Shown here: positions 684 to 62,235 of the stretch, piece after piece
How the letters are laid out: every line of letters begins with the position of its first letter
Position numbering within the stretch: the first letter of the stretch is position 1
NCBI GenBank assembly: GCA_030737835.1
Contig: CM060854.1
Coordinates: forward strand, 13,177,314 to 13,241,313
Direction of reading: 5' to 3'
DNA length: 64,000 nt
DNA from: Acorus gramineus
Lineage: Eukaryota; Streptophyta; Magnoliopsida; Acorales; Acoraceae
Program-made: the position numbers and the translations under genes
Notes under the pieces: generated by a model
Seen by the model: the letters and a program-made list of their open reading frames with translations, nothing else
Database searches by the model: none
Told to the model about the DNA's origin: nothing

Positions 684-1072
684 CACGACTCCTCTCTCTC
701 TCTCTCTCTACCGCTCTTTTTTCCTTGATTTATTATAAAAGTTGGAATTCATTTTCCCGCCATTTTGGTGTTGGTTCACTTGCGACGGGCCGGCATTGCA
801 CAGCCCGGCCTGTCATCCTCCCGTTTCACGGGCCGCGCCGTTCCAGTCTGGCACCTAGTACGGTAGCCTGGCACAAAATTCATGTTTCACCGCCTAAGCT
901 CTAAGCCCCTCTTTATAACGAGAATAGAATCTATTCTTAAATATACATTTATTCTGACATAAATAAAGATAAATTGATTTTGTGTTTAGTTGTATTTTAA
1001 ATTATTCTCGTTGGTAAACATAAAAATAAATGTTTTGTTGTTTGAATAAAATGTAAATAAAGTATGGATAAG
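684..1072. promoter_or_regulatory. 5' flank of the helicase gene
   Basis: The segment directly upstream of the minus-strand helicase ATG. A TC tract at about 693-710 reads as GA on the transcribed strand and is a common plant 5'-UTR or core-promoter feature. An AT-rich TTTATAATA-like stretch at about 728-738 could act as a TATA element. From about 900 the sequence becomes AT-rich and no gene is visible. The regulatory role is inferred from position only. Confidence 0.35.
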
Positions 1073-1612: not shown

Positions 1613-1616
1613 TAGT

Positions 1617-1854
1617 CCCGCCTACAGCCTCCTTGATCGTCTGGCTCCTCCTTCCTTCCTCTGGGGCTTTGGGTACCTGAAACTCACATCAGTGTGGTGC
1701 CGGCTAACGCCCCTCTGACGCTCGAGTCAGTAAATCTCTCCCTTCCGGGAAGAAGAGGAATTTAGAGTTATTCCATTTTTCTTAGGAGAGAGGGTCAGTG
1801 TTTGCATACCTCTAAAAGGAGGGGAAGTCTTCCTTTTTATACTCCATAAGGGCG
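1617..1854 (-). repeat. Truncated 3' LTR of the Ty3/gypsy element
   Basis: Nearly identical to about 5441-5668, including the block around the TATA box. The terminal ~110 bp on one side and the whole U3 side on the other are missing. The break at 1854/1855 falls exactly at the TG terminus of a long-LTR-family fragment. Confidence 0.75.
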
Positions 1855-2024
1855 TGTTATGCCTGTGTCATTTGGAGCCATTTTGGTTTAAGCCTTGGTC
1901 ACATCTGGGTCATTCAGAGCCTTTTTCTTTTTCGATCGGAGTCGCTAAAATTTTGGCTTTTAGCCACCTGCGGGAGTTGGAGTACTCTAATTGAAAATCT
2001 AACTGCATATTATGGGTCCTGGTA
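1855..2024 (+). mobile_element. 5'-terminal fragment of the long LTR family
   Basis: About 170 bp that match the first 170 bp of the unit at 40209-43984 almost base for base, starting exactly at the TG terminus (TGTTATGCCTGTGTC). It ends at GGTCCTGGTA, where the Ty3/gypsy reverse transcriptase frame takes over. It is the only trace of this family in the left half of the window. Confidence 0.85.
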
Positions 2025-3480
2025 GGGAGATTTCTCTCAGTTGCCTTAGAGATAAACCAATTTAGGGCCGCAAACCTCCCAGTCAGCCTTTGAACTTCCT
2101 TTCTGTTTCTTGGTGGGTTCATCTCGAGCACAGCTTTGACCTGATCGGCGTTGGCTTCTATACCCCGATGCGTGGTCAAGAACCCGAGGAACTTTCCTGA
2201 TTCTACCCCGAAGGAGCACTTAGCCGCGTTAAGTTTCATGCGGTAGTTCCGGAGAATTCTGAAAGCTGCCTTGAGATGCTCGAGATGGTCGCCCCGTTTG
2301 TCTCTTCTTACCAACATGTCATCTATATAAACTTCAACAGTCTTGCCAATCTATCGCTCAAACATCTTGGTGATGAGCCTCCGCATTTTTTAGCCCGAAG
2401 GGCATGACATTGGAACAGTAGGTGCCCATCGGGGTAATGAACGCCATTTTTTCGACATCATGCTCGTACATCGAAATTTGATGATATCCCGAATATGCGT
2501 CGATGAAGCTCATCAACTCATTTCCCAAGGAGGCATCTACTAACTGGTCTATTTTTGGTAGGGGAAGCTGTCCTTCGGACAAGAGCTGTTCAGATCAGTG
2601 AAGTCGACGCACACTCGCCACTTGTCGTTCTTTTTGGGTACTACCACCGTGTTGGCTAACCAGTCGGGATACCGGACTTCCCTAATGAACCCAGCGGCGA
2701 GGAGCTTCTCTACCTCTTCTTTGATGGCTTCGGCGTGAGTTGGAGCTACTCGCCTCTGGCGCTGCTTGACGGGTCACACCATGGGAGAGATACACAGTCG
2801 GTGGCAAATTATACTTGGATTGATGCCGGGCATTTCTGACGGCTTTCACGCAAACACATCCACGTATTCATAGAGCAACTTGATCAAATTTGCTCTTTCG
2901 TTCTGGTTCAGCGCGGTGCCGATAAGAAAGTACTTTTCTGGTTCGAGCGTGTCAAGGAGAATCTTCTCTAGGTCTTCCACCACCCGCTGGGCTGGACCGG
3001 GTCTGGCCTCATCGGCTTTCACCCGGTCCTTCAGTAATTGCTATCTTTTGGAATGTATGTCGTCTATGCTCCCGGGCGGCTCTTCGGCCTTAGCCTTACC
3101 AGAGGTAGCAATGGCATAGCACCTCCTCGCTATGGACTGATCGCCTCGTATCTCCATGATTCCACGTGGGGTCGGGAAGCGCAACTTCTGATGGTATGTT
3201 GACGGTATGGCTTTCATTGCCTTCAGCCAGGTGCGGCCCATGATGGCATTGTAGGGGGATAGGAGGTCCATGACGGTGAATTCGGTTAGGACAGTTTCTT
3301 TGCCCCCGCACTTATACGTCCCGCCGGAACTACCTGGCTCCCATTGAACGCGATCAGTGGGTCCCGCATTGGCTCAAGGTTAGAGGGCTTCAGGCCCATC
3401 TTGAGATAAGGCTGCATGAACAGGATGTCAGTCGAGCTTCCTGTGTCGACCAGTATCCGTTTAACATCGTAGCTCGCAAT
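2025..3480 (-). pseudogene. Ty3/gypsy pol remnant (protease and reverse transcriptase)
   Basis: Seen on the minus strand: aspartic protease motif D-T-G-S-S near 3455, the linker typical of this clade (Y-N-A-I-M-G-R-T-W-L) near 3240, then reverse transcriptase with D-A-Y-S-G-Y-H-Q near 2490, M-P-F-G-L-K-N-A near 2400 and the catalytic Y-I-D-D-M near 2310. Frames change near 2565 and around 2340-2350, so the gene is dead. The reading stops at A-T-E-R-N-L-P near 2030, where the connection to RNase H would begin. Everything after that, RNase H and integrase included, is lost at the junction with the foreign LTR piece. Confidence 0.85.
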
Positions 3481-7152: not shown

Positions 7153-10100
7153 CTACCATAGAGTGGGACTTTTCTTTGGGCTGTATATTCTCGACTTTCC
7201 AAACATGTTGGTGAAGAGCTTGGATTCTTTTTTGTCGTAGTATGACTGTAATTTCTTCACTCGTGCAAGTTGCAAAATCACTTCCCTACACATGCATCGA
7301 ATCCATGTGAATAACAAGCATATCTGTGCATGTTGAAAATATAACAGATTTCAAATGCTTTGTTCAGAGGACATACAATGTATATGGTCTGATGTTCGGG
7401 TGTGGGCATACATTGTGTATTTTTTATGGATGATCATAAAAGGCAAATATGCCCCATCTTTATATCGTAAATTATTAAATATGAAAGACAATAATGTTTG
7501 GTTAATCCTTATTTGCCAAAAAAAACATACTTTTTCCACTCAATTTAAGTCAAGTCTTTTGAAAATATTATGATAATAAAGAATAGATGATGTATGGACA
7601 AATGTGATTCTGTGACTTCTGTCTGTGTATCCATGTATGCATTAACTTGTATTTGTGTGGTATGTTAATTTGTACCACTTGCGATGTATACAAAAAATGA
7701 AAACAAAATTGCAGAGAGCAAGAGAGAGAGCTCACTGATTATGGGGGTCTATCTCATGTGTCTTCTTCAAGTCCAACGCTGCCAGGTCGAAATCAGTCAT
7801 CTCTATGTATGCCTGAGCTCTCCTGAAAAGTGCTTTGATATTGCAAGACTCAAGTTGCAATACCTGCAATGGGAAGAATAGAAGCCCATAAATTATTTGA
7901 CTCCAATTTGAAAGAGAATTTATAGATCTTCTACAACAAAACCATACTTTAATCATGTTTGCATGGTCAATAAAACATTACCAGTCATGTTGTACATTCA
8001 TGTTATGTAGTTCTTGAATCACTATTATTTATTATATTATTTATGTGGAGAATAAGCATTTCCTCTTCAGCTATAAAAGCATAAGAAATCCCAAAAGTAG
8101 TGAAGGTTGAGTATTTACCCTTGAGCACAATGCAACAGCTTCCCTGAATTCTTTCAACCTAATCTTGCATGCTGCATTATTAAGATTACAAGAAACTTTG
8201 AAGAACTTTCCCATTTTTTTTTGCTCCTCATTGAAAACAGCATCAAACTCCACATATTTCACCGCCTATTTAATGAAGAAATAATTAGCAGCTAAAAATA
8301 TCAAATGCAAAATGCGAATATAATGATGAAATGGGATGAAGTAGCTCCAAGATGGACTAAAATGAAAAGCCATTATTTTATTTTGTACAAGTAACTGCAA
8401 TAGCAAGTACGCTACTTGATGAGTTCTCTTCTTCTCCTTGTTAACATGTTTATTATTTCCTATTAAAACATACCAATAATTTTCGTACTAAAGATCTCTC
8501 TGTCAATTCAATCTTACAGAAAATGCCGTAAACTTGAGGACCTTCCACATCAATTCGTCTAGCTAAGTGGGGGCCAGGTTAATGAAGCTATGTGTAGAGA
8601 TATGTTGCTCTGAAGAATTATCTTACCGTGTCATATCTCAGTGAAGCTCGTTGGTACTTTCCAGCCTTGAAATATAGATTACCTTCCTCTTTCCTTTTAG
8701 CAGCATATTCAATCTTCTGCTCTGGTTCCATGTCCCATGGCTCTTTCACCTGAACCACAATGTACCAATCAATATCTTAGTAGAAAAAATACGGAAGAGA
8801 TAGCTACACAGAAATTATATTGCTCTTATTATAATATTATGAGATCTTACGATACAATTATTCAAGTACAATAGTAGAATCGCGGAACTGCTCAGCAACA
8901 GTCAGACTTGGAAAAAAAAAAAGAAATAAACTAGATATGAGTGGGCTAAATTCTGTACCTTTGTGAATTCTACCATCTCAACTTCATAATACAAAGTTGA
9001 GAATGAAGGGATTGCAACTAGATTCATCTGGGTCTGAGTGTTTCCAAATCCATATTGATGATCAATGATGATAAGAGCACCCTCTCCACGTTTCATGGAA
9101 GCGACTGCTAGATCAAGGCCAATAATGACTTGCTCTGTAGATCCATATATATACTTGATTCAGATCATATTACGAGGAGAAGTGAAAGCAAGACATATAT
9201 TCACTACAAGTCTACAAACCTTCATCGATTTTGAATTCAAATGGATCCTCCCCATCAAATCCCTTTTGGTCGAAAAGAGTACCATCTTCAAGTTTAGCAA
9301 TATACCTAACTGCATTATGGTCACTCGTAAATGTCATCATATAGTGATATTTATTGCACATGATGCTTGTCATCAATGCAATACCAGAGAACTTACTTTG
9401 GACAATGGTTCCACTATTCGGCTTCTCAAAGCTCTCCACTGGTTTTGTTATCTTCTTGACAACCTTCATATCCTCTGTGATACATTCTATAAGTTTAAAA
9501 GCAACCAATTCCAAGGAGATGATGATGACAGCATTAGGTGGTATAGCAGAAAGGCCATCTTGTGCAGGCCTTCCATAACAACCAAATGCATCTGCATATG
9601 AGGGAAATACAATGGGCTTGAGACAAGTCAGAACTCCAAGGAAGTCAACAAACTGATTTCATTTTTTGTTTGTGTCAACTGTCAAGAAATGTGCATCTGA
9701 AGCTCCCATATTTAAACACGGATTTGAAAGGCACTGCAAATTCCAAATTTTCTTAAAACAATAACATGGACATCATAATGGAGCAAACTAAAATAGCTTA
9801 CTAGCATTGAAAATAAGATAAGTGGATGTTTTTGCAGTGAGATAGAAAGGAAGATGCTTACATCTTTGTAAGATAATTAAGGGCATCAAAATCTTATTTA
9901 CCGCTTCTGCTGATTTCAGTTCTAATGAGGTCTTCTACTGCCATGAGATCAATTAGTTATCCCACTTGAGTTTGCAATTGCATGGCTTACTGTGCACATA
10001 TTTGTAGTTCCAGGGACTGAAATACTAGCATGCATTTTTGTTGTGGAAGAACAAAACAGCCACTAAATGTAAGAACTACGTACAGACATAAAAAAGGCTC

Positions 10101-12022
10101 AACAAAGAATAGAAAAAGATGTTGAGGATTCAACATGCAACATAAATGCAATTTTACAAAAGAAAAATACTAAATATCCAGTCTGTATCATTTCAAAATG
10201 TACAGAGAAAAATAATGACATAAAATCGGAGACATCTAGTAATTCCATTAAATGAAAGTAAGACACATATTAAATACACAAACGGCGTGTAGAGGATTCA
10301 AAGCAGAAGAATAACATACATCGTGAATCCACTCGTAGCAGAGCCTTTTCTCCTTTCCTCATGGTTACCACTGCTTTCTCAACAGCATGACATAGGTGAC
10401 CTATTTTGAGACATTAAACTCAAATTTGTTAAGATAAATGTCCACTGCTTATTTGAGATATTCAATAAGATATAATACAACATCAAGTAAATCTACCATC
10501 ATTTACGAGGAATTCCACTCCTGTTTCAGGGGACATTGCCACGAGGCTATCATCTTCCAGTCTTGCTTCGTATCTCACTACAGCAATGTGTCATGAAAAA
10601 TAAGATGAAAGAATACAAAATATAGACATCTCATAATTGGATTTGGATTCCATGATAAACTAGTATTTACCTGTCACTTCGTCTTTCTTTTCTGGGCGCA
10701 CCAACATCTCACTTCTGCTTAAGATTTTCTTGATTATACCTCCATCCCCACACACATCGACAACTTTCAACCAAGATATCATCTCGATTTCAAACTGCAG
10801 ATTCGCATCAATAGGGATGGCAAAGAAGACATCATGGGATCCATGAGTCGACTTAGGAGGCACAGTAAAGACAGCAATTTCTCCTTTCCTCATAGTCACA
10901 AGGCCATCATTGCATCCCTTAAGCACATGGTCTGTCATAAGAAAACATATCTTCTTATGTGTGTAGCTGAGGGCATAATATAAATAACTAAATCAAATTA
11001 CATAAATTTCATCACACATCAATTTTCATCCATGCAATGTTTTCTTGTATGATAGATCACCCAGAAATCCATAAATTAATCAATAACACAAAAAAAATAA
11101 AAACACGTCTCAAAAAATAGCACAGAATTATATTTCAATGCCCTCCAAAGTCGATGACATTTCAAACTAGTAGTTTTACTTGCACATGAAAATCAATTCC
11201 ATTAAACTGACAAGAATAGATAGTACACTTGATGTCCTATCTAAATCAGCTACCCACTCTTTTCCTTATAAATTTTACAAGGGATGAATTTTCAAACATT
11301 TGCAAAGGTGAATTTGCGTTGTTCATGTGTAGACAATATTGAGAATGCACGGGGTATGCCTATTTAACACGGTTTGTTGGATCATCAGAACATAAAGAGA
11401 ACTTATGTTAACTGAAAGAAAGCTATCTTAACATGATAACCCAAATGTTGGAAAACACGTACCATCACCAATCACCACCACCAATGGCTCCCCCTTGTTC
11501 CTACTGGAGGAAAACTGCTCCCCACCCAACACTCGACTCGTATAATGAACTGCACAAAACAAAAAAACATTTCAAACAATACCCATCAAAACTTTAAGCA
11601 CAACAGATTAAGATAATACATAGAAAGAAAGAAACAAAGAACAATAAAAATATAACATCAATTTTTTGTTATTTTGTCCTATTCCTCCTTTGTAAACTCA
11701 CTCGGTCATAGTCTATTTTGATTTTAATTGAAATAGATAAGCCCACATGTTCCTCCAAAAAAAAAAAAAAAAAAAAGAAAGAGCAACCAGAAACCGATGA
11801 TGATTGACGATTATAGCCACTATTATGGGTTAAATGAGTGTTTGACGTACCGGAGACTTCGTCGCCGGGCTCGGGGGAATCCCATCCATGCCCAGCCCGA
11901 ACGAGCTTCTTCTTGAGGCCGCACCTCGTGAGGATTCCTTCTTCATCTGCCCTGTTCGGATACTGTGGCCTGAACTCCTCCGCCTTCATCGGCGGAGCCG
12001 TATCTTCGTCGATCTCCTCCAT
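7153..12022 (-). CDS. FKBP62: ROF1/FKBP62-type immunophilin: three FKBP domains plus TPR
   Basis: Twelve exons (minus): 11851-12022, 11463-11549, 10671-10931, 10497-10577, 10320-10400, 9397-9591, 9220-9309, 8959-9134, 8627-8749, 8119-8265, 7736-7863, 7153-7285. They total 1674 nt, giving 557 residues, with GT-AG introns and every junction in phase. Arabidopsis ROF1 is about 550 residues, so the length fits. Domains: FKBP1 about 58-150, FKBP2 about 172-270, FKBP3 about 292-380, three TPRs about 392-515. Clamp-type K/N/N/K/R positions in the TPRs (E-E-G-N, N-N-A-A-C-K, K-A-L-F-R-R) predict binding to the Hsp90 C-terminus. Known: ROF proteins are cytosolic/nuclear Hsp90 co-chaperones in heat-stress tolerance. 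Odd: FKBP1 has lost the active-site Trp (G-C-N for G-W-D/E) and the Y-A-Y/F-G tyrosine (S-T-H-G), so isomerase activity is doubtful. The C-terminus is short. FKBP65/ROF2 is an equally possible ortholog. Confidence 0.88.
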
Positions 12023-12036
12023 TAGAGGACGCTCAT
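12022..12036 (-). promoter_or_regulatory. uORF overlapping the FKBP start codon
   Basis: A four-codon upstream frame starts at ATG 12034-12036. Its TAA shares one base with the main ATG (TAATG, 12020-12024). Such an overlap can limit initiation or allow reinitiation at the main start. No other in-frame ATG lies just upstream, so MEEIDED remains the best N-terminus. The effect on translation is inferred. Confidence 0.4.
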
Positions 12037-12797
12037 GATCACACAGAGAGAGAGACAACACTGTTATTAGTGTTTATTTAACAACCCACGAGTGGGCACC
12101 GAAACCTCACCCCCCACGTGTTGCTCGTGTTATATGGTGATGGTCCTTCAATTGATCAGATCCGTTGAACCCGTGTATTATTCCCGAAATCTGAAGAAGT
12201 AGATTTCATGAGATATCTGGCGCTGGGCCGTTCCGGCGATTTCATTTACGGACCGGTGGAGACAGTCCGGTGTGCAATTTGGACAGATTGAGCACAACCC
12301 CATTCTAATATGATCATGATTTTGAGTTTGAATTTTAGCATTCAAATTCAATCTAAAGATTAATCCAAACTTAATTTGAATTAAAGATTCAGAAAACTAG
12401 AAACAAACCGGATCATATAGAGAGTGATAAATTTTAATAAAGTTCTAATTGTCTAAATAACATCTTGTTAAACTAGTCCATCGGATTGGATTTAAATTGA
12501 ACTTTTTAAGTTTGAGAACTGATTGGGTTAATTTTGGACTAGAAGATTTAGCTTCAACCCGATTCATTCACCCATCCTTTTTATTTACAATCCGACACGA
12601 CAAGTCCATCATATAAACGGACCGGGCCGGGGCCCGGTTACATGGATAATTCGTGCTTGATTTGAGACCGGAAACATCCACCACTGGTAACCGTCCGATC
12701 TCAGAGACCGCCGTCAGATCCACTCTACAGAGACACGCACACGGGACAATAAAACCCTGCGAGGACTTCGTCGGTTAGGGTTTCCAACCGCGCGAAA
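12037..12797. promoter_or_regulatory. Head-to-head promoter region, FKBP gene / RPL37
   Basis: The two genes diverge from this ~760-bp space. Seen: a G-box core CACGTG at 12115-12120 on the FKBP side, GGGCC-type site II-like motifs near 12225 and 12625, and a telo-box (TTAGGGTTT, the complement of AAACCCTAA) at 12775-12783 right before the L37 start. Known: site II plus telo-box pairs are typical of plant ribosomal protein promoters. Whether the promoter is truly shared is inference. Confidence 0.5.
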
Positions 12798-13339
12798 ATG
12801 GTAGGCCCGTCTCCTCTTCCGTCGGTTCTGATTCATGTTTCAATCGATCGATCTGACAGTGATGATTTTGATTTCAGGGAAAAGGTACTGGAAGCTTCGG
12901 GAAGAGGAGGAACAAGACGCACACGCTGTGCGTGAGGTGCGGCCGCCGCAGCTTCCACCTTCAGAAGAGCCGTTGCGCCGCCTGCGGTTACCCGGCCGCC
13001 CGCACCCGCAAATGTAATGCAAAACCTAATCAATCCCATCCGTCAATGTTTTTATTAGATAGATCTGAATCACGTGATCTGATTTGATCTGTTTTGTATG
13101 AAAGACAACTGGAGTGTGAAAGCGATAAGGAGAAAGACCACCGGCACTGGCAGGATGAAGTACCTCCGCCACCTCCCCCGCCGCTTCAAGTCCAACTTCC
13201 GAGAAGGTGTTGTTTGTTTTACTCTCTCTTTTAACTCTCTCATTTTGTTGTTTGAAGAGAAAAAAAAAATAATTCGGTATGTGATGAATTAGGTACGGAA
13301 GCTGCTCCAAGGAAGAAGCCGACGGCACAGTCGGCTTAG
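12798..13339 (+). CDS. RPL37: 60S ribosomal protein L37 (eL37)
   Basis: Four coding exons: 12798-12800 (only the ATG), 12878-13013, 13105-13206 and 13293-13339. They total 288 nt, giving 95 residues, the normal size. Every intron is GT-AG. The product is the small zinc-binding protein of the large ribosomal subunit, which contacts 5.8S/25S rRNA. The C4 zinc motif (C-V-R-C-G about residues 19-23 and C-A-A-C-G about 34-38) is intact. Also seen are the diagnostic [15 protein letters not shown] and F-R-E-G-T-E-A-A-P blocks. A telo-box just upstream fits co-regulation with other ribosomal protein genes. Nothing suggests a pseudogene. Confidence 0.95.
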
Positions 13340-14366
13340 TTCTGAGGTTCTTTTGGTGAATTTTTTGTGTCGACTTATTTGTAGTGCTTCTCTCTGTTTC
13401 TTTCTTTCTTATGGTTGATTTAGTTGGCCCTTTGAGAGTTTTAGATGGATGTTCTCTTGGTTTTATGTTTTCTTATATGGATTTTGGTTGTTCATTGTGG
13501 GTCTTTGTATTAAAATTATCATCTTTTGAGAACATCTTTGATGGTTGGGATAGCTTTATATTGAATACCTAACATGACCAGTCACATTGAGTGTCTTGCT
13601 TTTGATATTTGATGTTATTTTATCAAATTCTGCTTCTCTGGTCGAGGTCCTCGTGTTGTGATTTTAGTATATGACCTCAGATTTCTGTCTTGGGTCTTGC
13701 AACTTGTGAATTGGGACAATTTTGTAAAATGGTTTTTGCATTTCTTCAACAATCCACTGTTCATATGTATGTGCCTGTGGATGAACTTAGGTAATTGTTT
13801 TAGATTTTGCATGTACATTGAAAATTCAGCCGGTTCTTAAGGCTTACCTATGACCTGAGTCATTAAAAGCATTCCTCTGTTTGTGCTCCATTCCTGTTAG
13901 GTTCGAAAATTGGATATTGCACCCACTGCTGGTTTAGTACCATATCACCCTTCTATAGAGCCCCAGGTTCTGTTTTTACAACAGCAAACTGGACTGGTAC
14001 ATCACTCAATTGGTTAACCTGTTTTAATTTTGTACTAGATGACATTTAGAAAGTGGTGTGGACGAGCGTGTGACTTATCTGATGATCTAAATAGGTTATG
14101 AAAACATTATGTAGAGGATTTTAAGGATGAAAAGAGCTGGAACTTCGTAGTGCAACATTGCAAAAGATTATGAGCAGAAAAAATGTTTTTCTCCACTATT
14201 ACATGGGTACAACTGGACAAGAAATGTGCTAAGACAAGGATTTCAACCATATCAATCCCTTGTGTGTTGTATGTGTAGATGAGTGGATTTCTTATCACCC
14301 TCAAGTAAAATGAAATCAAGATGCAGGTGGACGTAACCTAAAATGTTGTTTATTAATGTTGAGGGC

Positions 14367-14437
14367 TTGATCATCTTATGTGGATTAATTGATTTTGATT
14401 CTTGATCATCTTATGTGGATTAATTGATTTTGATTCT
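14367..14437. repeat. Two-copy 35-bp tandem repeat
   Basis: The 35-bp unit beginning TTGATCATCTTATGTGG occurs twice in direct succession with no mismatch. It looks like a recent local duplication. Confidence 0.85.
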
Positions 14438-15340
14438 ATATCTTCACCTTGTTACATGATTAGATTTTTGGCTTGGACTTTCTTCTTTTTTTCTGGATGG
14501 ATATCTTTCAGAGTTTCCAGCATGCCCTATATATTGCATGTGCAAGCTGCATGGTAACTCTGTGACTTGTTTTCTTAATTTTATGATTTGATTTTGTTTA
14601 TGCAGCTCATACCAATCTCATCAGTCTCACAGGCATGCTAGATTATTGGACCTTTTTTCCTGTCACTTGCACAGTGAGACGATTCATATTGTCTGTGTTC
14701 CTGTATAACTATTATAAACTGTTTTTCTCTGCCATTGTTGTGCTTGATATAGATAACAAGAGCACTGGTATCTGGGATTAATTCATGCCTTGCCTTTTAT
14801 CTTTCCTTCCCATCACAACACAATTTGAGGTCCTATATTGGGACCTTTTCCATGCACTAGGTCCCAGTTTATTTACTGAGCTCTATTACTCAGTCTTTTT
14901 AGAGTCACAAATATAGTCCTATATATCTCTTTAGCTTCTTCACTCACTGTATCGAGATATATACCTCGTTAAATTTTTTTCATAATTTTATAAATGATTA
15001 TGCATCATCTTTTATCAAAGTATATACGTCATCAAATGAGGTATATGATTTTTAGAAAAATGAAAACATGTGTGGTCTGCGTTTTAGACTGTGTAACATT
15101 TTCCATTTACTGTATATATGTTCCTGGGATTGAAGTTTCTGTGAGTAATAGTTTGGGTTTTTTGTCTGAGAGTTCAATGCAGGATGCTAAGAACTATTAG
15201 CAGTATAAACTTTCCATCCATGATAACTCAAATCATCCAGAAGCAGTTACTATACGTAAATGAGAAAAACCACAATAGCGGAAGAGAGAATTACGCAATT
15301 ATATTGAAAGTAGTGGTTGTACGTTGTATGATTAGTCTGA

Positions 15341-15561
15341 GGCTCCGTTTGGCATGGAGTTTGCCTCGAATTTGCGTCGGCAAACACCAAGACTTGCATA
15401 CGCTCAAATAAATGAAATTCGCAGCTTCTGTGTTTGATTTTATTTTGTATGATTAGTGTGTATTTGTTGGTCTCTTCGCCAACGCTAAAAAAAACCGCTT
15501 TAGCAGTATGCCCCTGCCCTTGGTAGACACGCTGGCTCAAGAAGATCTCCCAAACGGAGCC
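15341..15561. mobile_element. MITE-like unit with 12-bp terminal inverted repeats
   Basis: GGCTCCGTTTGG at the left end and its exact complement CCAAACGGAGCC at the right end bound a ~220-bp non-coding segment. The terminal sequence resembles hAT- or PIF/Harbinger-derived MITEs. No clear target-site duplication is seen at either boundary, so the family stays open. Confidence 0.6.
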
Positions 15562-48706: not shown

Positions 48707-51700
48707 GACTTGGTCAAACCTTTTTGTTTTTTTGTGTGGTTGGGTTGACTCAAAGTCAAGCCTCACCAACCATTTTTTTTTCTCATTAATGTGTGTGTGT
48801 GTGTGAGTGTGTGTGTGTGTGTGTGGTCCTATTAGTGGGCGTCCCCCTTCATTTCCCATCTCCCTCTCCCTCTCACTCCCATCTCCCTCTCCCTCTCACT
48901 CACTCCTTCACTTCCTCTTCCTTCCTTATTGTCCCAAATAGAGGTAGTAAAAGAAGAAGAAGAAGAAAGACCTAGAGAGGAGAAGTGAAGGTATGTGTGT
49001 GTGCAATCTTTGTGTGGTGTTTGTTTTTGTTTCCCTTCTCTCTATCTCCCTCTCATGCCTTTCCCCACCCCTGTTTTCAGCCATTTTAGGGCTTGAAAAG
49101 TGGCTGAGAAGGTGGTGGTGTTGGTGGTGGCGGTTGTGGTTGTGGTGGTTTGGTGCGCAAAGGGCACCCAAGTTTCCCCCCTTTTTCCTCCCCCTCCTTT
49201 TAGTAAGTTTTCCTCCTCCCTTAGCCTTGTTTAGATGATTGTTAGGGTTTTTAAGTGGTCATGCATGCCTTGCATAGCTGGTGGGGGGAGTGGGAGGGCT
49301 GAGGAGGGGGTGGGAGGGGTTCGGGCGCGCGCAGAGGGGCGCTGGCGCGCGCAGACGGGCGCGCTGGCGGGCGCGCGCACGTACGCGCAGGTGCGCGGGC
49401 GTGCGTGCGGGGTTCTGCACGGGCGCAGTGCGCGCGGGCTGGACGCGCGATGCCCGTGGGCGCGCGCGCGGCAGCGCGTCTGGGCGCGCGGTAGTGCGCC
49501 AAGGGTGCTGGGGCGCGTGCGTGCGTGCGCGTGCGGGGGGCCATGCGTGTGGCTGCCCGAGGGTTCGGGTGGGTGTCGGGGCACTCGGACTCGCGTGCGT
49601 ACGTGCGTGCTCGCATGCGTGCGAGTCCGTATGCATGCTTGTCTGAGTATTTGGTATTTCTAGTAAATTTCATGTATATTTGTGTAGTTTACTCACCATA
49701 TTGAATGCCCATGTCTTGCAGATCTTGGCGAACGGTCACGCAACGACCCGGGTTTCGGTGAGTGGGTCAATCCAACCCAGTAGGGAGGCGTTCGATGCAC
49801 GTAGGCATGCATTGCCCTCCCCTAGGGCACCATAATTGCATATTAACTTGTGTCAATGAAAAACGATGTTAATGCATGTTTTACTATGATGTAACCATGC
49901 CATATTAGACATTGTATGCTAGGGATATACATCCATATATCATGTATAGAGGCCCATACATGTCTAGACACTATGTCCCATGCTTGAAAAGCCTTGATCT
50001 ATGCATGTTCCCATTTAATTTAATTTATTTAAATCAAAATGAGATTATATTGGTATAAGCATGCCTTAGAGAATATTATAACCTTGTTGTTATAATATAT
50101 GTTTCCCCGCATCTTAGTTATGCGCCCTGGAGGAATTCTTGAGAATTCATGACATTAGTAGTGTTAGAAATCGTTGTCGTAGGCTGTTTTCTCCCCTTCG
50201 TTGGATCCGAGTAGGGACTCCCCGGCGTTGGAAAGCTGTCCTGACAGAGGGCTCCCATCTGTAGGTACCTCCGATGCGTTCGGAGGGTGCTGATCGTGGG
50301 AGTATACCAGGTAGAGGCTACGCGAGGGAGAGGCTACTGGTGGACCAAGGGTGGACAGCAGTCTAGTCTGTCCCAAAAGGCCCATGTCACCCCTTAAAGG
50401 GTGAGGGTGAGGGTGGGGTGGGTCGGCGATGTTACGACCCACTAGCTTGTACAGTTGCTCCCGTTTAGGACTTTAATTATTTTAAGGTTAATATGAGTTG
50501 TGTTGCATAGATTGTGCCATTCACTGAGCGTGTGGCTCACCCCTCGCATATTCTTTTCCTCCAGTTGTTACTGAGTCGGATCTGAAGGAGGAGCTCCCCG
50601 AGGCATCACAGCAGTAGCGGAGCAGCGTTCACGTTTTGGGTTCTGCGAGTGAGAGGCCATCAGCATCCCCTTCCTTGCTTGTATGTATTGTTATCCGTGC
50701 TTGGGCACAACACTTGTATATGGATGTCTTTGTTTATATTGGCTCTCACAGGACAGTTGATTATGAATTCTGGTCTGTAATATGTCTTTGAATTACAGAC
50801 TCAGTCGTTTAAGCTTCCGCTATATGTATATATATTATGTCAGCTACATTGTTGATTGTGTTGTCATTTTCGATGTTGTTTAGAGTCTTTTATTAATCTC
50901 CTGTATGGACTGCTGATATTATATATATTTACCACGTATCGGGGACGGTCGCCCTGGGGCGTGACATTATGACCCGTTGTCGGGTTGTACCTTAGTTAGT
51001 TAGAGCGCAAGCGATATAATTGCCACCCTCCATCTGTGTGATGTACTTGTTGGAATCAGGAGAATTCGATGTTTTACCGGTGTTTCAAACTGGTGGTTAT
51101 GGTGTTTAAGCTAGGCCTACCCATGTTAAGCGAGTGTATGAACCGCCCATTGGGTTATGCCTTGAGCTTACTTTTGGTGCGAGAGCCGAGGTAACTCCTT
51201 GTGTCCGAGCAATACATCTGTGTGGGAGTTCATATGTATTCGATAGCATCGGTAGCCGATTATCGAGAGTAGTTGTTTTTCAATTGGGTTTGCTTTGCGA
51301 ATATGGAGTGTTTCTTCCCAATATCGTCCATGTTGAAGCGGCCCGGGTTGTAGCTGTCCTGACAGAGGGCCCCCACCTGTAGGTACTATTGATGCATGCG
51401 GCAAGATGTACTGATCATGGGGGTATACCAGATAGAAGCTACCCGGGAGAGGGCTAACAAATGATATTGCGAGCATGGAATCATTCTCCCCTTCGTCGAA
51501 TCTGTCACGCCCCAGGGTCGCCATCCCTGAGACGTTGCAATAATAAAATATCAGCTATCAATACCTGAGGTCAATAAAGACTCCAACAACAATACACAAG
51601 GTGGCAAAGCAAGATAATGATAACTGACTGAAAAGAGGAAGCATAATATATAAACAATGTTTGTAAATCAAAAACATTATTACAGACTCGAATACACAAT

Positions 51701-53391
51701 CACTGTCCTGTGAGAGCCAAGTCTAGACCAAAGAAAATACAACCTGTGCCACATGCACGAATTACAATACATACAATGACTCTAGGACTGCTGACAGCCT
51801 CGCACTCGCCACCCGCCGGAAGAACGCTCCACGCCCATGAGACCACGCCACAGGGAAACTCCAACTCCACGCCCAACACTGCCCCTGAAAAGAAACAGTA
51901 TGCGAGGGGTGAGCTACAAGCTCAGTGAGTGGCTGGAAACCAATCACCATACTACAGTTCAATACATATACACTTTCCTTTCAAGAAAAACATGGGTGGA
52001 GACTCTTGGGACTTTTGGGGAGAGACCATACCGTCGGTCGAAGAGACCCGGAATTACTGGTCTACACAACACTACTGGATCATCTACATCTAGATAATTG
52101 CTCAAACGATGCCTTTAAACATCGATACAAGACCGGACCCAACAACTATGGGAACGGTCGAACAACGAATGGGTCACGCGGCGATATTCTTCACCTCATC
52201 CTCACCGTCACCCTTTAGGGGTGACATAGGCTTTTGGAAGAGATTTAGACTGCTCTACACCCTTGGTGCACCGGTAGCCTCTCCCTCACTCCGTAGCCTC
52301 TACCTGGTATACTCCCACAATCAGCACCGTCCGACGCATCGGAGGTACCTACAGATGGGAGCTCTCTATCAGGACAACTTTCCAATGCCGGGGGGTCCCT
52401 ACTCGGATCCAACGAAGGGGAGAACGATTCCCACGCTCGCAACATCATTCGTTAACCCTCTCCCGGGTAGTATCTACCTGGTATACTCCCACGATCAGTA
52501 CGCTTCCAAATGCATCGGTGGTACCTACGGATGGGAGCCCTCTGTCAGGACAGCTACAACCCGATCTCCTCAACTCACCGCTCTACACCCTTGGTCCACC
52601 GGTAGCCCTTTCCCCGGGTAGCCTCTACCTGGTATACTCCCACGATCAGTACTCTTCCGAATGCATCGGTGGTACCTACGGATGGGAGCCCTCTGTCAAG
52701 ACAGCTAAACCCGAGAAGTTCCTACATCGGATCCAACGAAGGGGAGAACGATCCCATGTTCGCAAAGCGAACCCAATGGAAAACAACTACTCTCGATAAT
52801 CACTTATCGAGATATCAAAACACAGGCATAACAACAATCTATGCAACACACTCATATTAACCTTAAAAATAATTAGAGTCCCTAAATGGGAGTAACTACA
52901 CAAGCTAGTGGGTCGTAACATCGCCGACCCACCCCACCCTCACCCTCACCCTTTAGGGGGTGACATGGGCCTTTTGGGACAGACTAGGCTGCTCTTCACC
53001 CTTGGTCCACCAGTAGCCTCTCCCTCACTCCGTAGCCTCTACCTGGTATACTCCCACGATCAGCACTGTCCGACGCATCGGAGGTACCTACAGATGGGAG
53101 CCCTCTGTCAGGACAGCTTTCCAACGCCGGGGAGTCCCTACTCGGATCCAACGAAGGGGAGAAAACAGCCTACCCACACGGATACGATCCTCTTGGATCC
53201 GTCGACAACGATTCCTAACATTTCTAATGTCATGAATTCTCAAGAATTCCTCCAGGGCGCATAACTAAGATGCAGGGAAACATATATTATAACAACAAAG
53301 TTATAATATTCACTAAGGCATGCTTATACCAATATATTCTCATTTTGATTTAAATAAATTAAACTAAATGGGAAACATGCGTAGGCCAAGG

Positions 53392-56106
53392 TGTCACGCC
53401 CCAGGGCGGCCGTCCCCGAGGCGCGGCAATGGTATATATGATATCAGCAGTCTATACAAGAGGTCAATAATATACTCTAAACAATATCAACAATGACAAC
53501 ACAGACAACAAAGAGGCTGACATAATATATACACAAATAGCGGAAGCTAAAGGACTGAATCTGTAATTCAAAGACATATTACAGACTCGATACATAATCA
53601 ACTGTCCTGTGAGAGCCAATATATACAACGACATCCAAATGTAATACAAACATGTGCCTAAGCACGGAATACAATACATACAATCAAAGGGGGATGCTGA
53701 TGGCCTCTCACACGCAGAACGTGACGCTGCTCCGCTACTGCTGATGTGCCTCGGGGAGCTCCTCCTTCAGATCCGACTCAGATATAACTGGAGAAAAATA
53801 TATGCGAGGGGTGAACCACACGCTCAGTGAATAGCACAACCCATGCATCACAATTCATATAAACCTTATACAATTCATAGCCCCTAACACGGGCGCAACA
53901 TCAACATTCTAATGGGTTATTTCATCGCCAACCCACCTCCCACCCCCCCCCCCCCTCACCCTCGCCCTCTCTGAGGGGGTGACATGGGCTTCTTGGGGCA
54001 TACTAGACCGCTTCCAACCCCTGGTCCCACCGGGTAGCCTCTCCCACCCTCGTAGCATCCACCTGGTATACTCCCACGATCAGCACAGTCCGAAACACAT
54101 CAGGAGGTACCTACAGATGGGAGCCCTCTGCCAGGCCAGCTAACGCCGGGGAGTTCCTACCTCGGATCCCAACCAATAAGGAGAAGACAGCCTAGTCACG
54201 CGGATACGATCCTCATGGATCCGTCGACACCGGTGGTAACTCTACTAATGTCATGAATTCTCAAGAATTCCTCCAGGGCGCATAACTAAGATGCGGGGAG
54301 ACACATATTATAACAACGAGGTTATAATATTCTCTAAGGCATGCTAATAACCATAAGCTCGCATTTGATTTAATCAAATTAAACTACTTGGGAACATGCA
54401 CAGGTCGGGCAAGGTGTCTAGGCAGGCACGGGCCTCTAACATGATGTAAGGGTGTATATCCCTAACATACAAATCTAAGGTGGCATGGACACATCATAAT
54501 AATCAATATAAGGGTGCATATCCCTAACATGCAGGTCTAAGGGGGGCATGGATACAACAAAATATTCATGCAAGGCATAGTTTACATTCAATACTAGCTA
54601 ATATGCAACTATGGTGCCCCAGGGGAGGGCAATGCACGCCTACGTGCATCGAACGCCTCCCTACTGGGTTGGATTGTCCCACTCACCAATACCCGGGTCG
54701 TCGCGTGACTGCTCGTCAAGATCTGCAAGACATAGGAAATCAAAATGGTGAGTAAAATACACAAATACACAAGAAATATGCTAGAAATACCCAACACTCA
54801 GACAAGCATGCATACGGGCCCGTACGCACGCGAGTCTGAGTGCCCCGACACACTCCCGCACCCCCGGGCAGCCATGCGCACGGCCACCCGCACGCGCACG
54901 CACGGGTGCGCACGCACGCACGCACGCCCGTGCCCTGGGCGCACTGCCGCGCCCCAGCCCGCGCGCCCAGGCACCGCGCGTCCAGCCCCGCGCCTACCCG
55001 TATGTACTGCGCCCCTGCGCAGCACCCCGCGCGCATCCCCGCACGCACTGCGCCCCTGCGCAGCGCTCCGCGCGCACGCCTGCGCGCCCGCGCGTACGCG
55101 CGCGCTCACCCAGCGCCCCCGATTGCGCGCCTGCTCTGCCTGCGCGCGCGCAAACTCGCGCGCACGCACGCGGATGACCCCGCATGCGCGCCCGAGCCAA
55201 CCTCACCACCTCCCTCAGCCCTCCCCCACCCCAAACACTTATGCAACCCTTGCACATCCAAAAACACATCCTAAACATGCATCTACACAAGAAATAGGGG
55301 GGAGGAAAGCTTACCCAAGGGAGGAAAGGAAAGGAGGGATCTTCGGGTGCTCTTCGCGCACCGATTTGCCACCACCAAAGCCACCACTACCAAGACCTCC
55401 CTCAGCCCTAAAAGTGGCTGAAAACAGAGGTAAAAAGGGGCTAAGAGAGGAGGCCTCACAAGGGGGAAATAAAAAATGAAACCATGGAAAGATAGATCGG
55501 GACAATACCTTCCTTTTCTCCTTCAATGGCTTTTATTTTTAACCACCCTAGCTAGGTCAAAAGTGGGAAAAAGAGAGAAGATGAGAGAGCTTGAGAGAGA
55601 TGGAGAAGAAGATGAATAGGAGGGGGTGCACTATTCTTGGGCATGGACCTCACTTAAAGCCACACACACACACACCACTCACACTCACACACTCACACAC
55701 TTAGAATTAATTAGGTTAAGTTAGGTTTAGGTGATCTTTGACCCTAGTCAACCCAACCACACTAGAAAACAAAAGATTTTGACCAAGTCAAGGGTCAACA
55801 TTGACTTGGTCAAAGTCCTCTTTGACTTGGTCAAGTCTCCCAATGACTTTTCGCTTGGTCAAAGGATACGATTCGGAACTGTGAAATTCTGAAACGTTAC
55901 CAGAATTCGATGAAATTTTTGTGAGTGGCTTGAAATGGCACGAGGACACATAATATGCAGTTAAATTTTCAATCGGAGTTCTCTAGCTCATGATGATAGC
56001 CAAAAGTCTGAAATTTTAGCAGTTCCGATCGAAAAAAGAAAAAGTTGAAAAACTGCTAGAATGCTCCAATGGTAACCAGAAGGCAAAAAGTGACACATAT
56101 ATAACA
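53392..56106 (-). mobile_element. Solo LTR unit C inside B, TSD CAAGG
   Basis: It starts TGTCACGCCCCAGG and ends CATATATAACA, flanked by perfect CAAGG (53387-53391 and 56107-56111). Length is 2715 bp, short subfamily. Layout on its own strand: Gly-codon-rich block ending at 55315, GTAAGC donor, intron-like 54723-55314 (592 nt, CG-rich), mini-exon 54687-54722 (36 nt) then GTGAGTGG. Confidence 0.9.
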
Positions 56107-56129
56107 CAAGGCTTTCCAAACATGGGACA

Positions 56130-59100
56130 TGTCGTGCCTGTGTCATTTGGAGCGCTCTGATTGAAAATTTGGGTACATAATTTTTTTCCTCTCTCCTAGA
56201 AGTTATGTATTTCCAATTTGGTATTTGGATTTGATTTTGTTAAAATCAAAGATGAAGAGGTTTAAATATGATTTTATTATGAAATATCCAGTTTTGAGTT
56301 AGCTTTCGTACAAAAGTGGAATTAGGTCAACTGGATTCATGTAGTAAAAGTTATGGGTATTTTTCCAAGTATACCCCAGGGATGGAAATTCTGGCAGCAG
56401 CCCTGTTCTATGTTTAGCTCTAATTTCGGAATAGCTGGAGGGATTATTTGATCTTGGTATAAACATGAAAGTTGTAGATAATCTTCTTGGCTTTCCAACA
56501 GAATTAGAATTGTGCAATTTGGAGCTATATCGAGGACGTTATGGCTGTTCTAGTGAAGCTTGTACAGAATTTCAAGTCAAAGGATGATTTGGTCATTTCC
56601 ATCCCTTTTAGATATTTGTGTGCAACAAATATCTCTTCTCTCTCTCTCTCTCTCTTCCCCTCCCATTCCCCACGTAGACATTCTTGGCCCTCTCTTCTCT
56701 CTTTTCAAAGCCCCCTAGGTGTTTGTTTTAAGTCCCCAATGAAAAGGAGATGGTGGAGGAGGAAGTGTTGTGTAGGTTTTGTTGTTGTTGTTGATCTCCT
56801 CTCTCTCAAGTTCCCTTGCATGATCTTTCCCCCCCCTGATTTGCAGCCATGGGAGGGCTGAGGAGGCCGAAGAGGTGGTGGTGGTGGTCGAGGTGGCCGT
56901 GGGCGCGTCGAGAGCCCCGCATCTCCCCCTTTCCGTTTCCCTCTTTTGGTAAGTCCTCTTCCCCTTCTTTTTGATTTTTTAGGGTTGTTGGGATGGTTGG
57001 GGAAGTCATGCATGCCATGCATAGGGGTTAGAGAGTGTGTGAGGGGTTGGGGAGGGTTAAAATGGGGTTAGGGTTGGCTGGGCGCGCATCGGGAGCTGTC
57101 TGCGCGCAGGCGGGCGCTGGCAGGCGCGCAAACGCGCGCGGGTGCGCACGAGCGTGCGCGTGCGGGGCAGTGCACCTGGGCGTGCGTCTGGGCTCGGGGC
57201 TGGGGGCCAGTGCGCGCGTGCGTGTGCGTGCGCATGCGTGCGCGTGCTGGGGCGTGCGCGCTGTTCTGCACGAGCGTGCGCGTGCAGAGCGTTTGGGCGC
57301 GCTGGCTGGCGCGCGGCAGTGCGCCGAGGGTGCTGGGGTGCGTGCATGCGTGCGCATTCATGCGTGCGTGCGTGGGGGGCCATGCGTGTGGCTGCCCGAG
57401 GATTCGGGTAGGTGTCGGGGCACTCGGACTCGCGTGCGTACGTGCGTGCTCGCATGCGTGCGAGTCCGTATGCATGCTTGTCCAAGTATTTGGTATTTCT
57501 AATGATTTCTATGTGTAAATTGTGTTGTTACTCACCAAATTGGATGCCCCTACCTTGCAGATCTCGTCGGATGGGATGCGCGAGGTCCCAGGTCGTATGG
57601 TGAGTGGTTTGATTCCAATCCCCCCCCCCTCTCTAGGGATGCGCTCGACCCGCAGAGACGCGCGCAAGGCAGTGCGCCTGGGCGCGGGGTTGGGGGCCAG
57701 TGCGCATGCGGGCGCGCGTGCGCATGCGTGCGCGTGCTGGGGCGTGCGCGCGGTTCTGCACGGGCGCGCGCGAGCGTGGCAGAGCGTATGGGCGCGCGGG
57801 CAGGCGCGCGGCAGTGGACTGAGGGTGCTGGGGTGCGTGCGTGTGTGCGCATTCATGCGTGCGCGTGCGGGGGGCCATGCGTGTGGCTGCCTGAGGGTTC
57901 GGGTAGGTGTCGGGGCACTCGGACTCGCGTGCGTACGTGCGTGCTCGCATGCGTGCGAGTCCGTATGCATGCTTGTCCAAGTATTTGGTATTTCTAATGA
58001 TTTCTATGTGTAAATTGTGTTGTTACTCACCAAATTGGATGCCCCTACCTTGCAGATCTCGTCGGATGGGATGCGCGAGGTCCCGGGTCGTATGGTGAGT
58101 GGTTCGATTCCAATCCCCCCCCCCTCTCTAGGGATGCGCTCGACCCGCATAGACGCGCGGCGCGCATCGATGGGGCCCCCTAGCTATAATATGTAGATAC
58201 TATGTAATGCATGATTAATATGATGTAACCATGCCATATTAGACTTTGTATGCTAGGGATATGCATCCATGATATCATGTATAGAGGCCCATACATGCCT
58301 AGACACCATGTCCCTTGATTGGAAAGCCCCGATCTATGCATGTTTCCCATTTAGTTTAATTTAATTAAATCAAAATGAGAGCATATTGTTATAAGCATGC
58401 CTTAGAGAATATTATAACCTTGTTGTTATAATATATGTTTCCCCGCATCTTAGTTATGCGCCCTGGAGGAATTCTTGAGAATTCATGACATTATTACTGT
58501 TACAAATCGTTGTCGACGGATCCAAGAGGATCGTATACGCGCGTGAGTAGGCTGTCTTCTCCTTTTGGTTGGATCCGATGTAGGGACTCCCCGGCGTTGG
58601 AAAGCTGACCTGACAGAGGGCTCCCATCTGTAGGTACCTCCGATGCGTCGGACAGTGCTGATCGTGGGAGTATACCAGGTAGAGGCTACGAAGTGTGGGA
58701 GAGGCTACCGGGTGGACCAGGGGTGGAGAGCGGTCTAGTCTGTCCCAAAAGACCCATGACACCCCTAAAGGGTGAGCGTGGGGTGGGTCTGCGATGTTAC
58801 GACCCTCTAACTTGTGTAGTTACTCCCGTATAGGGACTATGATTACTTTAAGGATAATATGAGTGTGTTGATTGTTGTTATGCCTGTGTTTTGATATCTC
58901 GATAAGTGAGTATCGAGAGTAGTTGTTTTCCATTGGGTTCGCTTTGCGAACATGGGATCGTTCTCCCCTTTGTTGGATCCGATGTAGGGACTTCTCGGGT
59001 TTAGTTGTCCTGACAGAGGGCTCCCATCCGTACGTACTACCGATGCATTCGGAAGAGTACTGATCGTGGGAGTATACTAGGTAGAGGCTACCCGGGGAAA

Positions 59101-60234
59101 GGGCTACTGGCGGACCAAGGGTGTAGAGCGGTGAGTTTAGGAGATCGGGTTGTAGATACTACCCGGGAGAGGGTTAACGAATGATGTTGCGGGCGTGGGA
59201 ATCGTTCTCTCCTTCATTGGATCCGAGTAGGGACTTCCCGACGATTACAGCTGTCCTGACAGAGGGCTCCCGTCCGTAGGTACCACCGACGCGTTTGGAA
59301 GAGTACTGATAGTGGGAGTATACCAGGTAGAGGCTACGCGGGAGAGGCTACCGGTGGACCAAGGGTGTAGAGCAGTCTAAGCCTCTTCCAAAAGTCCCAA
59401 TAGTCTCCCTCCTTGAGTGAGGGTAAGGATGAGGTGAAGACACATCGCCGCGTGACCCAGTCGTTGTTCGGCCGTTCCCATAGTTGTTGGGTCCGGTCTT
59501 GTATCAATGTTTAAAGGCATCGTTTGAGCAATTATCTAGATGTAGATGATCCAGTAGTGTTGAGTAGACCAGTAAATCCGGGTCTCTTCGACCGACGGTA
59601 TGGTCTCTAGACCAGTAAATCCGGGTCTCTTTGACTGACGGTATGGTCTCTCCCCAAAAGTCCCAAAAGACTCCCTCCGGGAGTGAGGGTGGGGGTGAGG
59701 TTGGTCGCGCCGCCGCGTGACCCAGTTATCCATGGGTTTCCACCCATGTTTTCCTTGAAAGGAAATTGATTATGTATTGAACTGTAGTATGGTGATTGGT
59801 TTCCAGCCACTCACTGAGCTTGTAGCTCACCCCTCGCATACTGTTTCTTTTAAGGGGCAGTGTTGGGCGTGGAGTTGGAGCTTTCCTGTGGCGTGGTCTT
59901 ATGGGCGTGGAGCGTTCTGCCGGCGGGTGGCGAGTGCGAGGCTGTTAGCATTCCTAGAGTCATTTTATGTTTTGTAAATCGTGCATGTGGCACAGGTTGT
60001 ATTTTCTTTGGTCTAGACTTGGCTTTCACAGAACATTGATTGTGTATTCGGGTCTGTAATAATGTTTTTGATTTACAGACATTGTTTATATATTATGCTT
60101 CTGCTTTTCCGTCAGTTATCATTATCATTGCTTTGCCACCTTGTGTATTGTTGTTGGTGTCTTTATTGACCTCAGGTATTGATAGCTGATATTTTATTAC
60201 TTTGCCACGTCTCGGGGACGCCTGGGGCGTGACA
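56130..60234 (+). mobile_element. Solo LTR unit G inside B, TSD GGACA
   Basis: It starts TGTCGTGCCTGTGTC and ends CTGGGGCGTGACA, flanked by perfect GGACA (56125-56129 and 60235-60239). Length is 4105 bp. A ~495-bp tandem duplication (57170-58155) accounts for its greater length than unit D. Layout: block ending at 56948, GTAAGT donor, intron-like 56949-57560, mini-exon 57561-57599 (39 nt) with a second copy at 58056-58094, and last acceptor-like CTTTTAAG near 59854, which has lost the CAG. Confidence 0.9.
57170..58155 (+). repeat. ~495-bp tandem duplication carrying the mini-exon (unit G)
   Basis: The segment that contains part of the CG-rich block, the CCTTGCAG acceptor, the mini-exon, GTGAGTGG and the following ~60 bp occurs twice. 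The period is 495 bp (GTATTTGGTATTTC at 57486 and 57981). The copies differ by a few substitutions. Confidence 0.88.
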
Positions 60235-60481
60235 GGACATGGTGTCTAGGCATGTATGGGCCTCTATACATGATATATGGATGTATATCCCTAGCATACA
60301 ATGTCTAATATGGCATGGTTACATCATATCAAACATGCATTAACATCGGTATCTACATATTATAGCTAGGGGGCCCCATCGATGCGCGACGCGCGTCTAG
60401 GCACGTCAAGCGCATCCCTAGGGGGGGGATTGGAATCGAACCACTCACCTTACAACCCGGGACCTCGCGCATCCCTTCCGA

Positions 60482-60493
60482 CGAGATCAAAAG
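60482..60493 (-). other. Precise intron-loss junction in unit B
   Basis: Minus strand reads CTCTTTTG|ATCTCGTC across 60493-60482. In unit G the same two blocks are split: CTCTTTTG ends at 56948 before GTAAGTCC, and ATCTCGTC begins at 57561 after CCTTGCAG, with 612 nt between. Flanking sequence on both sides aligns well between B and G. The boundary is ambiguous by one G but agrees with GT-AG removal. Confidence 0.85.
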
Positions 60494-62235
60494 AGGGAAA
60501 CGGAAAGGGGGAGATGCGGGGCTCTCGACGCGCCCACGGCCACCTCAACCACCACCACCACCACCACCACCTCTTCCGCCTTTCTTCAGCCCTTCTTGGC
60601 TGCAAATCAGGGGGGGGGGAAGATCATGAGAAGGAACTTGAGAGAGGAGGATCAACAACAACAACACATGAACAACCCTTCTCTTCTTCCTTCACCATCT
60701 CCTTCTCTTTAGGGAATAAACACAAACACTTGGGGGGCTTTGAAAGAGAGAAAGGGAGGCCAAGAAGAAGGTTGACATGGGGTTGGGAGGGAGAGAGAGA
60801 GAGAGAGAGAAGATATTTTGGGTACAAATAAATATCTAAAGAGGGATGGAAATGACCATTTCATCCCTGACTTAGAAATTCTGCGCATGCTTCACTAGAA
60901 CAGCCATAACTTCCTCAATATAGCTCCGAATTGCACAATTCAAAATCCGTTGGAACGCCAAGAAGATTATCTACAACTTTGATGTTTATGCCAAGATCAA
61001 ATAATCTCTCCAGCTATTCCGAAATTAGAGCTAAACATAGAACAGGGCTGCTGCCAGAATTTTCATCCTCGGGGTATACTTGGTAAAATACCCATAACTT
61101 TTCCTACATGAATCTAGTTGATCCAATTCCACTTTTGTACGAAAGCTAACTCAAAACTGGACATATTTAAACCTCTTCATCTTGGATTTTAACAAAATCA
61201 AATCCAAATACTAAATTGGAAATACATAACTTCGAGGAAAAAAATTATGTAGCCAAATTTTCAATCAGAGTGCTCCAAATGACACAGGCACAACAGAATC
61301 TGTGTCGATGCTACCTAGCGTTGTAGTTGTTCTGTAGAGGGCCCCCACCTGTAGGTACTATCGATGCATGCGGCAAGATGTACTGATCATGAGGGTATAC
61401 CAGGTAGAGGCTACTTGGGAGAGGGTTACCGGATGATGAAGGGTGTAGAGCAAACAGTTTTATCTCAAAAGTCACTAGGATCACCCCTGCAGGGGCGAGG
61501 GTGAGGGTAAGTTGAGTCACGTCGTCACGTAACTCTTATACCCATCGAGTATACTCTGGGTATGATACTCCTAACGCGTGAGGTATCGAAGTATATCTCT
61601 ACCTCGTAGCGGATGGACTCGTCGTATTTTTTTATCTAGTAACACCATGTGTTATGGTTAATAGTTGTTCTTCCCCGAGTGTCCCAAAAGCCTCCCTCCA
61701 GAAGTGAGGGCGAGGGTCTTGTTATCCATTGGGTTCCCACCCATGTTTTCCTTGAAAGGAAATTGCCTTAGTATTGAATTGTTGTTATGGTGCTTGGCTT
61801 CTTGCCACTCACTGAGCTTGTAGTTCACCCCTCGCGTACTGTTTCTTCTACAAGGGCGGTGTTGGGCGTGGAACTGGAGCTTCCCTGTGGCATTGTCTTG
61901 CGTGCATGGGAGCGTCCCATCTGGCGAATGGCGAGTGCGAGGCTGTCAGCAGTCTTAGAGTCTTGTATTTGTAATAGTGCGTGTTGCACTGGTTGTATTT
62001 TATTTGGACTAGACTTGGCTCTCACAAGATAGTGATTGTGTATTCAAGTCTATAATAATGCTTTTGGTTTACAAACATTATTGATATTTTATGCTTCCGC
62101 TTTTCAGTTAGCTATCATTTATCTTTTCCTTGCCACCTTGTGTGTTATTGTTGGAGTCCTTGTTGACCTCAAGTATTGATAGCTGATATTATATATATTG
62201 CCACGTCTCGGGGACGGCCGCCCTGGGGCGTGACA

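Follow-up and report, generated by a model that had tools for sequence, protein, structure and literature searches.

Putative spliceosomal introns within the LTRs of an Acorus gramineus retrotransposon family and their precise absence from some genomic copies

The long terminal repeats (LTRs) of a retrotransposon family in Acorus gramineus appear to carry internal spliceosomal introns, which the RNA serving as template for reverse transcription would mostly retain and at times have lost by splicing. On the DNA evidence, this reading is given a probability of about 0.9. It centres on B, a solo LTR in the window (the whole 64,000-nucleotide stretch of DNA that was analysed), whose RNA template was probably spliced at a GC-rich block, intron B, and left unspliced at a second, upstream block, intron A. 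The first-pass annotation had proposed that the GC-rich block is an intron and that B stems from a partly spliced template. This is supported by the sense placement of the block in the LTR, by exact and recurrent junctions, by the retention of intron A, and by the C55 element. The structure of the LTR, the exact junctions and their recurrence, the combinations of introns A and B and the loss from both LTRs of the C55 element can be read directly from the DNA, and the precise loss extends beyond B within the genome.

Solo LTR B occupies 61295..51503 on the minus strand, is flanked at its start (61296..61300) and end (51498..51502) by the target duplication GATTC read on that strand, and is interrupted by the solo LTRs G and H. 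Its 5' part (60235..61295, minus) starts with TGTTGTGCCTGTGTC and runs up to the insertion site of G; the start is set by the TG and by the limit of homology at 61295 in relatives, and polypurine tracts (PPTs) lie upstream of some such starts. A short middle piece (56107..56124, minus) is bounded by the duplications of G and H, and the 3' part (51503..53386, minus), which is homologous to G 58334-60234, is placed by its terminus CTGGGGCGTGACA and the adjoining flank. G itself lies at 56130..60234 on the plus strand between copies of GGACA (56125-56129 and 60235-60239), and H, from a divergent subfamily, at 53392..56106 on the minus strand between copies of CCTTG (53387-53391 and 56107-56111). 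The surrounding region, 36000-64000, is a dense nest of LTRs of several subfamilies with GC-rich blocks that reach 73% GC in one 1-kb bin, and these blocks are possibly versions of intron B.

Reading B along its minus strand, U3 and the first transcribed segment cover 60677..61295, with transcription presumably starting in the region of a CT-rich run near 60810. Intron A follows at 60600..60676 (77 nt); it is preceded by AAGG, extends from GTTGTTC to GATTTGCAG and is followed by CCAAG, limits that are defined by precise loss at the same site in other copies. Comparison of sequences places a 112-nt exon at 60488..60599 between introns A and B. The exon-exon junction where intron B is missing lies at 60487..60488, as identified by junction patterns and by comparison with G, and the exon downstream of it would be 39 nt long (60449..60487) if the next donor is used. 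That conserved donor-like site, GTGAGTGG at 60441..60448, also occurs elsewhere in the window, where four divergent LTR stretches out of six examined have it (near 38.0, 47.0, 49.8 and 54.7 kb), and is possibly the donor of a third intron, C, ending outside the LTR.

The junction in B is exact when set against G. Minus-strand positions 60495-60480 read CTCTTTTG joined directly to ATCTCGTC, a 16-mer found once in the window. On the plus strand of G, CTCTTTTG ends at 56948, intron B runs from GTAAGTCC at 56949 to CCTTGCAG at 57553-57560, and ATCTCGTC resumes at 57561, so both sequences confirm that B joins at 60488/60487 two blocks that G keeps 612 nt apart (56949..57560). Through a 495-bp tandem duplication (57182..58159, plus), G has the intron B acceptor and the beginning of the exon that follows twice over; the second, identical acceptor at 58055/58056 would make the block 1107 nt long if used. 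Homology on both sides, as the earlier reading of the window had claimed, amounts to 85.6% upstream (B 61295-60488 against G 56130-56948) and 91.6% downstream (B 60488-60235 against G 58055-58313), and the other intron-like gap said to be retained in B is present as intron A at 60676-60600. Microhomology at the junction is limited to 1 nt. When 601 nt of B were compared with the A. gramineus genome (398.6 Mb, 137 contigs), matches at the 39 places scored besides B ended at query position 413, the junction, in 27 cases, at 408 in 8 and earlier (398, 398, 380 and 347) in 4. For 19 of the 39 places there was a second matching piece, which began at 413 in all but one (414), and this piling up of ends and starts at 413 excludes a chance junction.

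Copies that carry intron B are abundant and have the ends of a spliceosomal intron. A donor pattern allowing up to 3 mismatches was found at 907 places in the genome and its backward control at one. Among the 25 intron-bearing copies in which both ends were located, the block begins with GT in all 25 and ends with AG in 24; a further 7 rows, whose acceptor was not found within 2 kb, were excluded from this count. The GT...AG ends are thus conserved despite a length that varies from 421 to 842 nt among measured copies, as is characteristic of U2-type introns. In L012 (donor at 3406) the acceptor of intron B reads GCAA, a natural splice-site variant. A point against an intron is base composition, as the measured blocks have a GC content of 0.58-0.69 and plant introns tend to be U-rich (PMC3735527).

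Copies without intron B are far from confined to the window. The junction pattern (up to 3 mismatches) occurs at 21 places in the genome, against 2 for its backward control, which disposes of B as a unique oddity. At 19 of the 21, B included, homologous exons on both sides are joined directly; aligning genomic copies around the site, the check that had been suggested with the original observation, therefore returned the same exact junction in further copies. The other two were set aside, L049 lacking exon homology at the junction and L045 having only its exon-1 tail aligned. Scanned for CTTTCCSTTTCCC and ATCTCGTCGG at a spacing of 0-30 nt, the genome gave five places, each with exactly TCTTTTG as the spacer, so that the graded series of deletion endpoints named beforehand as a refutation is not seen within this range. 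Copies whose exons end in CCTCCCAAG, CCTCCCTTG, CCTCCCTAG or CCTCCAAAG have the same join point in all 11 regions, out of 20 retrieved, in which the pattern used resolved the intron B junction. The endpoint is therefore identical across subfamilies that differ in their exon ends (TTTTG, CCAAG, CCTTG, CCTAG). Two intronless copies, L040 (C94) and L042 (C73), have in common an abrupt change at which the interior of intron A directly adjoins the end of another LTR; an insertion or template switching may be the cause.

The alignments also revealed the upstream block, intron A, which is about 75-105 nt long across copies and is retained in all 25 intron-B-bearing copies of the first sample. Members of one subfamily differ exactly by this block, with L036 reading CACAAGAAG, then GTGTTTGTG...TTTTTCAG, then CCAAG, while L034 has CACAAGAAG joined directly to CCAAG; L039 and L032 differ from each other by intron A just as precisely. 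Most of the intron A block is missing from L035 and L037 too, with a differing join. Exact patterns for the four states of the two introns gave genome counts of 546 with both, 5 with A alone (B included), 3 with B alone and 4 with neither, and 0 for each of the four backward controls; since no mismatch is tolerated, these counts are too low and leave out subfamilies whose exons end differently. Every combination is thus present, which is what independent splicing or retention of the two introns would give, and copies with intron B alone demonstrate that A and B have been lost separately.

The orientation of the block follows from relatives that retain internal sequence. In the 20 loci L009-L028, 5 of 27 end-pattern matches (L012, L017, L019, L027, L028) show an LTR end followed by GTTGGTATCAGAGCC, which we take to be a primer-binding site (PBS) for initiator tRNA-Met. 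A purine-rich PPT such as CCTAAGGGGGGAAGAA precedes the LTR start at 6 of 38 start-pattern matches (L009 twice, L010, L018, L021, L025). The remaining matches to either pattern are solo, nested or chance occurrences and were left unsorted. The reverse arrangement gave a PBS before the start at 0 of 38 and a PPT-like tract after the end at 1 of 27, in L012, where an LTR start on the opposite strand abuts. These positions place the intron B block in sense inside the LTR and rule out a reversed LTR in which GT-AG would be antisense. The LTRs run from TG to CA with short target duplications (GATTC for B, GGACA for G, CCTTG for H, GGCTA for the C55 element), that of L018 is about 3.7 kb long, and internal open reading frames match Retrotrans_gag (E 8.7e-18), SH3_Tf2-1 and, below threshold, a zinc knuckle (CCHC). 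Such features are consistent with a Ty3/Gypsy LTR retrotransposon, perhaps a Tekay/Del chromovirus given the resemblance of the PPT and integrase tail.

Loss from a whole element, beyond that from solo LTRs such as B, is found in the C55 element, read as the reverse complement of 573300-590400. Its first LTR spans positions 477 to 3355 and its second starts at 6735, directly after a PPT, and ends at 16495, with other inserted sequence at 8662 to 15537. GGCTA stands at both outer ends, and the LTR pair is 95.9% identical over 1936 positions and 95.3% over 958. Block B is absent at the exact place from both LTRs, so that an exon-exon junction, the mark of a retrocopy, is carried by both; in the second LTR the base preceding the join is A instead of G. 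Both LTRs also lack block A, with one common join, GTGATG/CCAAGG, which is exact on the acceptor side and not fixable to the base on the donor side, where the nearest intron-bearing relative, L016_p5541, differs. In standard reverse transcription the R and U5 of both new LTRs are copied from the 5' end of the RNA, and a spliced template is therefore predicted to produce loss in two LTRs, as seen here. Two points count against the C55 element: a partial older LTR with an intron acceptor sits between its LTRs, and where a PBS is expected downstream of the first LTR, the sequence is unlike that of other copies. L035, also considered as an intronless pair, was rejected since the middle LTR of its tandem array carries the intron.

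The number of losses was estimated from a tree that excludes intron columns and takes in the 31 rows, out of 46, with 600 or more aligned columns; a free alignment is unsuitable here, as several copies lack homology in their 5' parts. The tree needs 6 changes of intron B state, at least 3 of them forced by well-supported branches, and rejects a single clade for the 8 intronless rows (p-AU 4.3e-6). Supported branches unite intronless with intron-bearing copies, namely the C55 element with L016_p5541 (98/99) and L039, L032 and L033 with L021_p1404 (100/100). The tree has weak points, as 7 of its 28 inner branches are well supported and the bootstrap had not settled. B sits in an unresolved fork, and when labels were shuffled 500 times, 78 of the shuffles required no more changes than the actual intronless group does.

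Inheritance would explain many intronless copies. With the intronless L038 as query, 37 of 40 scored matches continue across both junctions and the other 3 are interrupted precisely at that of intron A, in a search that such a query biases toward intronless matches. The L038 subfamily looks largely intronless and amplified, and inheritance accounts for many of its copies. B is not unique, and not every intronless copy represents a separate splicing event. With L035 as query, 7 of 40 places, itself included, run through the junction; with L046, 12 of 40 run through and 28 begin exactly at the B junction. These 28, which are 95-97% identical to the query downstream, presumably carry intron B.

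The alternative with most weight, improbable as it is, holds that recombination with an already intronless relative, or a switch of template to one, gave B the stretch that lacks the intron, splicing itself being a rare event of the distant past, one or a few in number. There are indeed groups of intronless copies, and L074 and L035 (C8:14391000-14400873) form a tandem array of LTR-internal-LTR-internal-LTR in which the middle LTR is intron-bearing and the last intronless, which indicates that copies do recombine. Yet the surroundings of the B junction are nearest to intron-bearing copies over 129-132 positions (L011 at 99.2%, then L010, L012 and L013 at 98.5%), with 97.7% for the best intronless copy, L032; this margin is small and may leave room for a short conversion tract in B. 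Further against such an exchange, B retains intron A, the copies with intron B alone point to separate losses, and the tree rejects a single origin.

It is very unlikely that the intronless state is ancestral and that the block was inserted later in one lineage as a new intron. The appearance of at least one divergent subfamily as largely intronless would fit this, but divergent LTRs of the window have a donor-like site at the matching place (aligned to exon 1 at 40994, 4 nt past the alignment near 38552, and in H judged from position alone). That supported branches group L039, L032, L033 and the C55 element with relatives carrying the intron also argues against a late gain, as do the 28 L046 matches starting at the junction. 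Least probable of all is an ordinary DNA deletion that fell by chance on the ends of the block. LTR deletions are common and this family varies in length elsewhere, but a single nucleotide of microhomology, an endpoint unchanged by differing exon ends, the lack of any slack in five of five places and the like behaviour of intron A all speak against it.

Under the preferred reading of copying from partly spliced RNA, the LTR would contain at least two complete spliceosomal introns, A and the GC-rich B, most likely in the transcribed R/U5, and its promoter would lie close to the CT-rich run around 60810. Splicing would take place in the nucleus, and the RNA that is packaged and reverse transcribed would mostly be unspliced, as 546 of the 558 copies caught by the four exact patterns (about 98%) keep both introns. 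Now and then, RNA lacking A, B or both would be packaged and copied, and as the 5' end of such an RNA is the template for R/U5 in the DNA product, both new LTRs would lack the intron concerned. B would then be the solo LTR remnant of an element whose template was spliced at B and unspliced at A. We infer the transcription start, transcription itself, cellular splicing and packaging, as well as which of the kept or lost changes reflect splicing and which inheritance or recombination. A further suggestion, tentative and on balance doubtful, is that the introns act as a life-cycle switch in which RNA for translation is spliced in R/U5 and RNA for packaging escapes splicing, which would leave most copies with both introns. 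If so, the amplified intronless lineages are a natural experiment on the purpose of LTR introns.

Complete introns in LTRs, if real, would place splicing signals in the very repeat by which the element is defined. Each solo LTR would keep a potential promoter-plus-intron unit, and each new copy would be a record of a spliced or an unspliced template. As one genome offers 907 donor-pattern places and the full set of intron states, the rate and order of copying from spliced RNA could become measurable from DNA alone. The family resembles Ty3/Gypsy chromoviruses (Tekay/Del-like) in its TG...CA LTRs, 5-bp target duplication, PBS AAAGTTGGTATCAGAGCC, purine-rich PPT and reading frames matching Retrotrans_gag, SH3_Tf2-1 and, below threshold, CCHC, and differs in an LTR of ~3.7 kb with at least two internal introns. 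As far as the accessible parts of the sources go, plant LTR elements are generally without introns, with Ogre and EVADE as exceptions (PMC12786077), and splicing of retrotransposon RNA is likewise described for CRR, Ogre and Bagy2 (PMC3735527), so that Gypsy (Ogre, CRR, Bagy2) and Copia (BARE1, EVADE) elements provide parallels (PMC3735527, PMC12786077). In BARE1, splicing makes Gag and packaged transcripts are unspliced (PMC3735527), a packaging from the unspliced pool that parallels the one proposed here (PMC3735527, PMC12786077). In what is accessible on these five elements, splicing concerns coding regions or subgenomic RNAs, whereas here whole introns lie inside the LTR and intronless genomic copies exist. 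A literature search made mostly in papers open without subscription found no description of LTRs that contain entire introns and also have spliced copies in the genome. A further likeness is to intron-marked assays, as the intron placed in yeast TyH3, and those in later reporters, proved an RNA template through precise intron loss, in the account available (PMC12786077); those introns were engineered, whereas the ones in A. gramineus are natural and located in the LTR. Retrotransposition from a spliced template is already known, and what is new here, and well supported by the DNA evidence, is the presence of introns inside the LTR.
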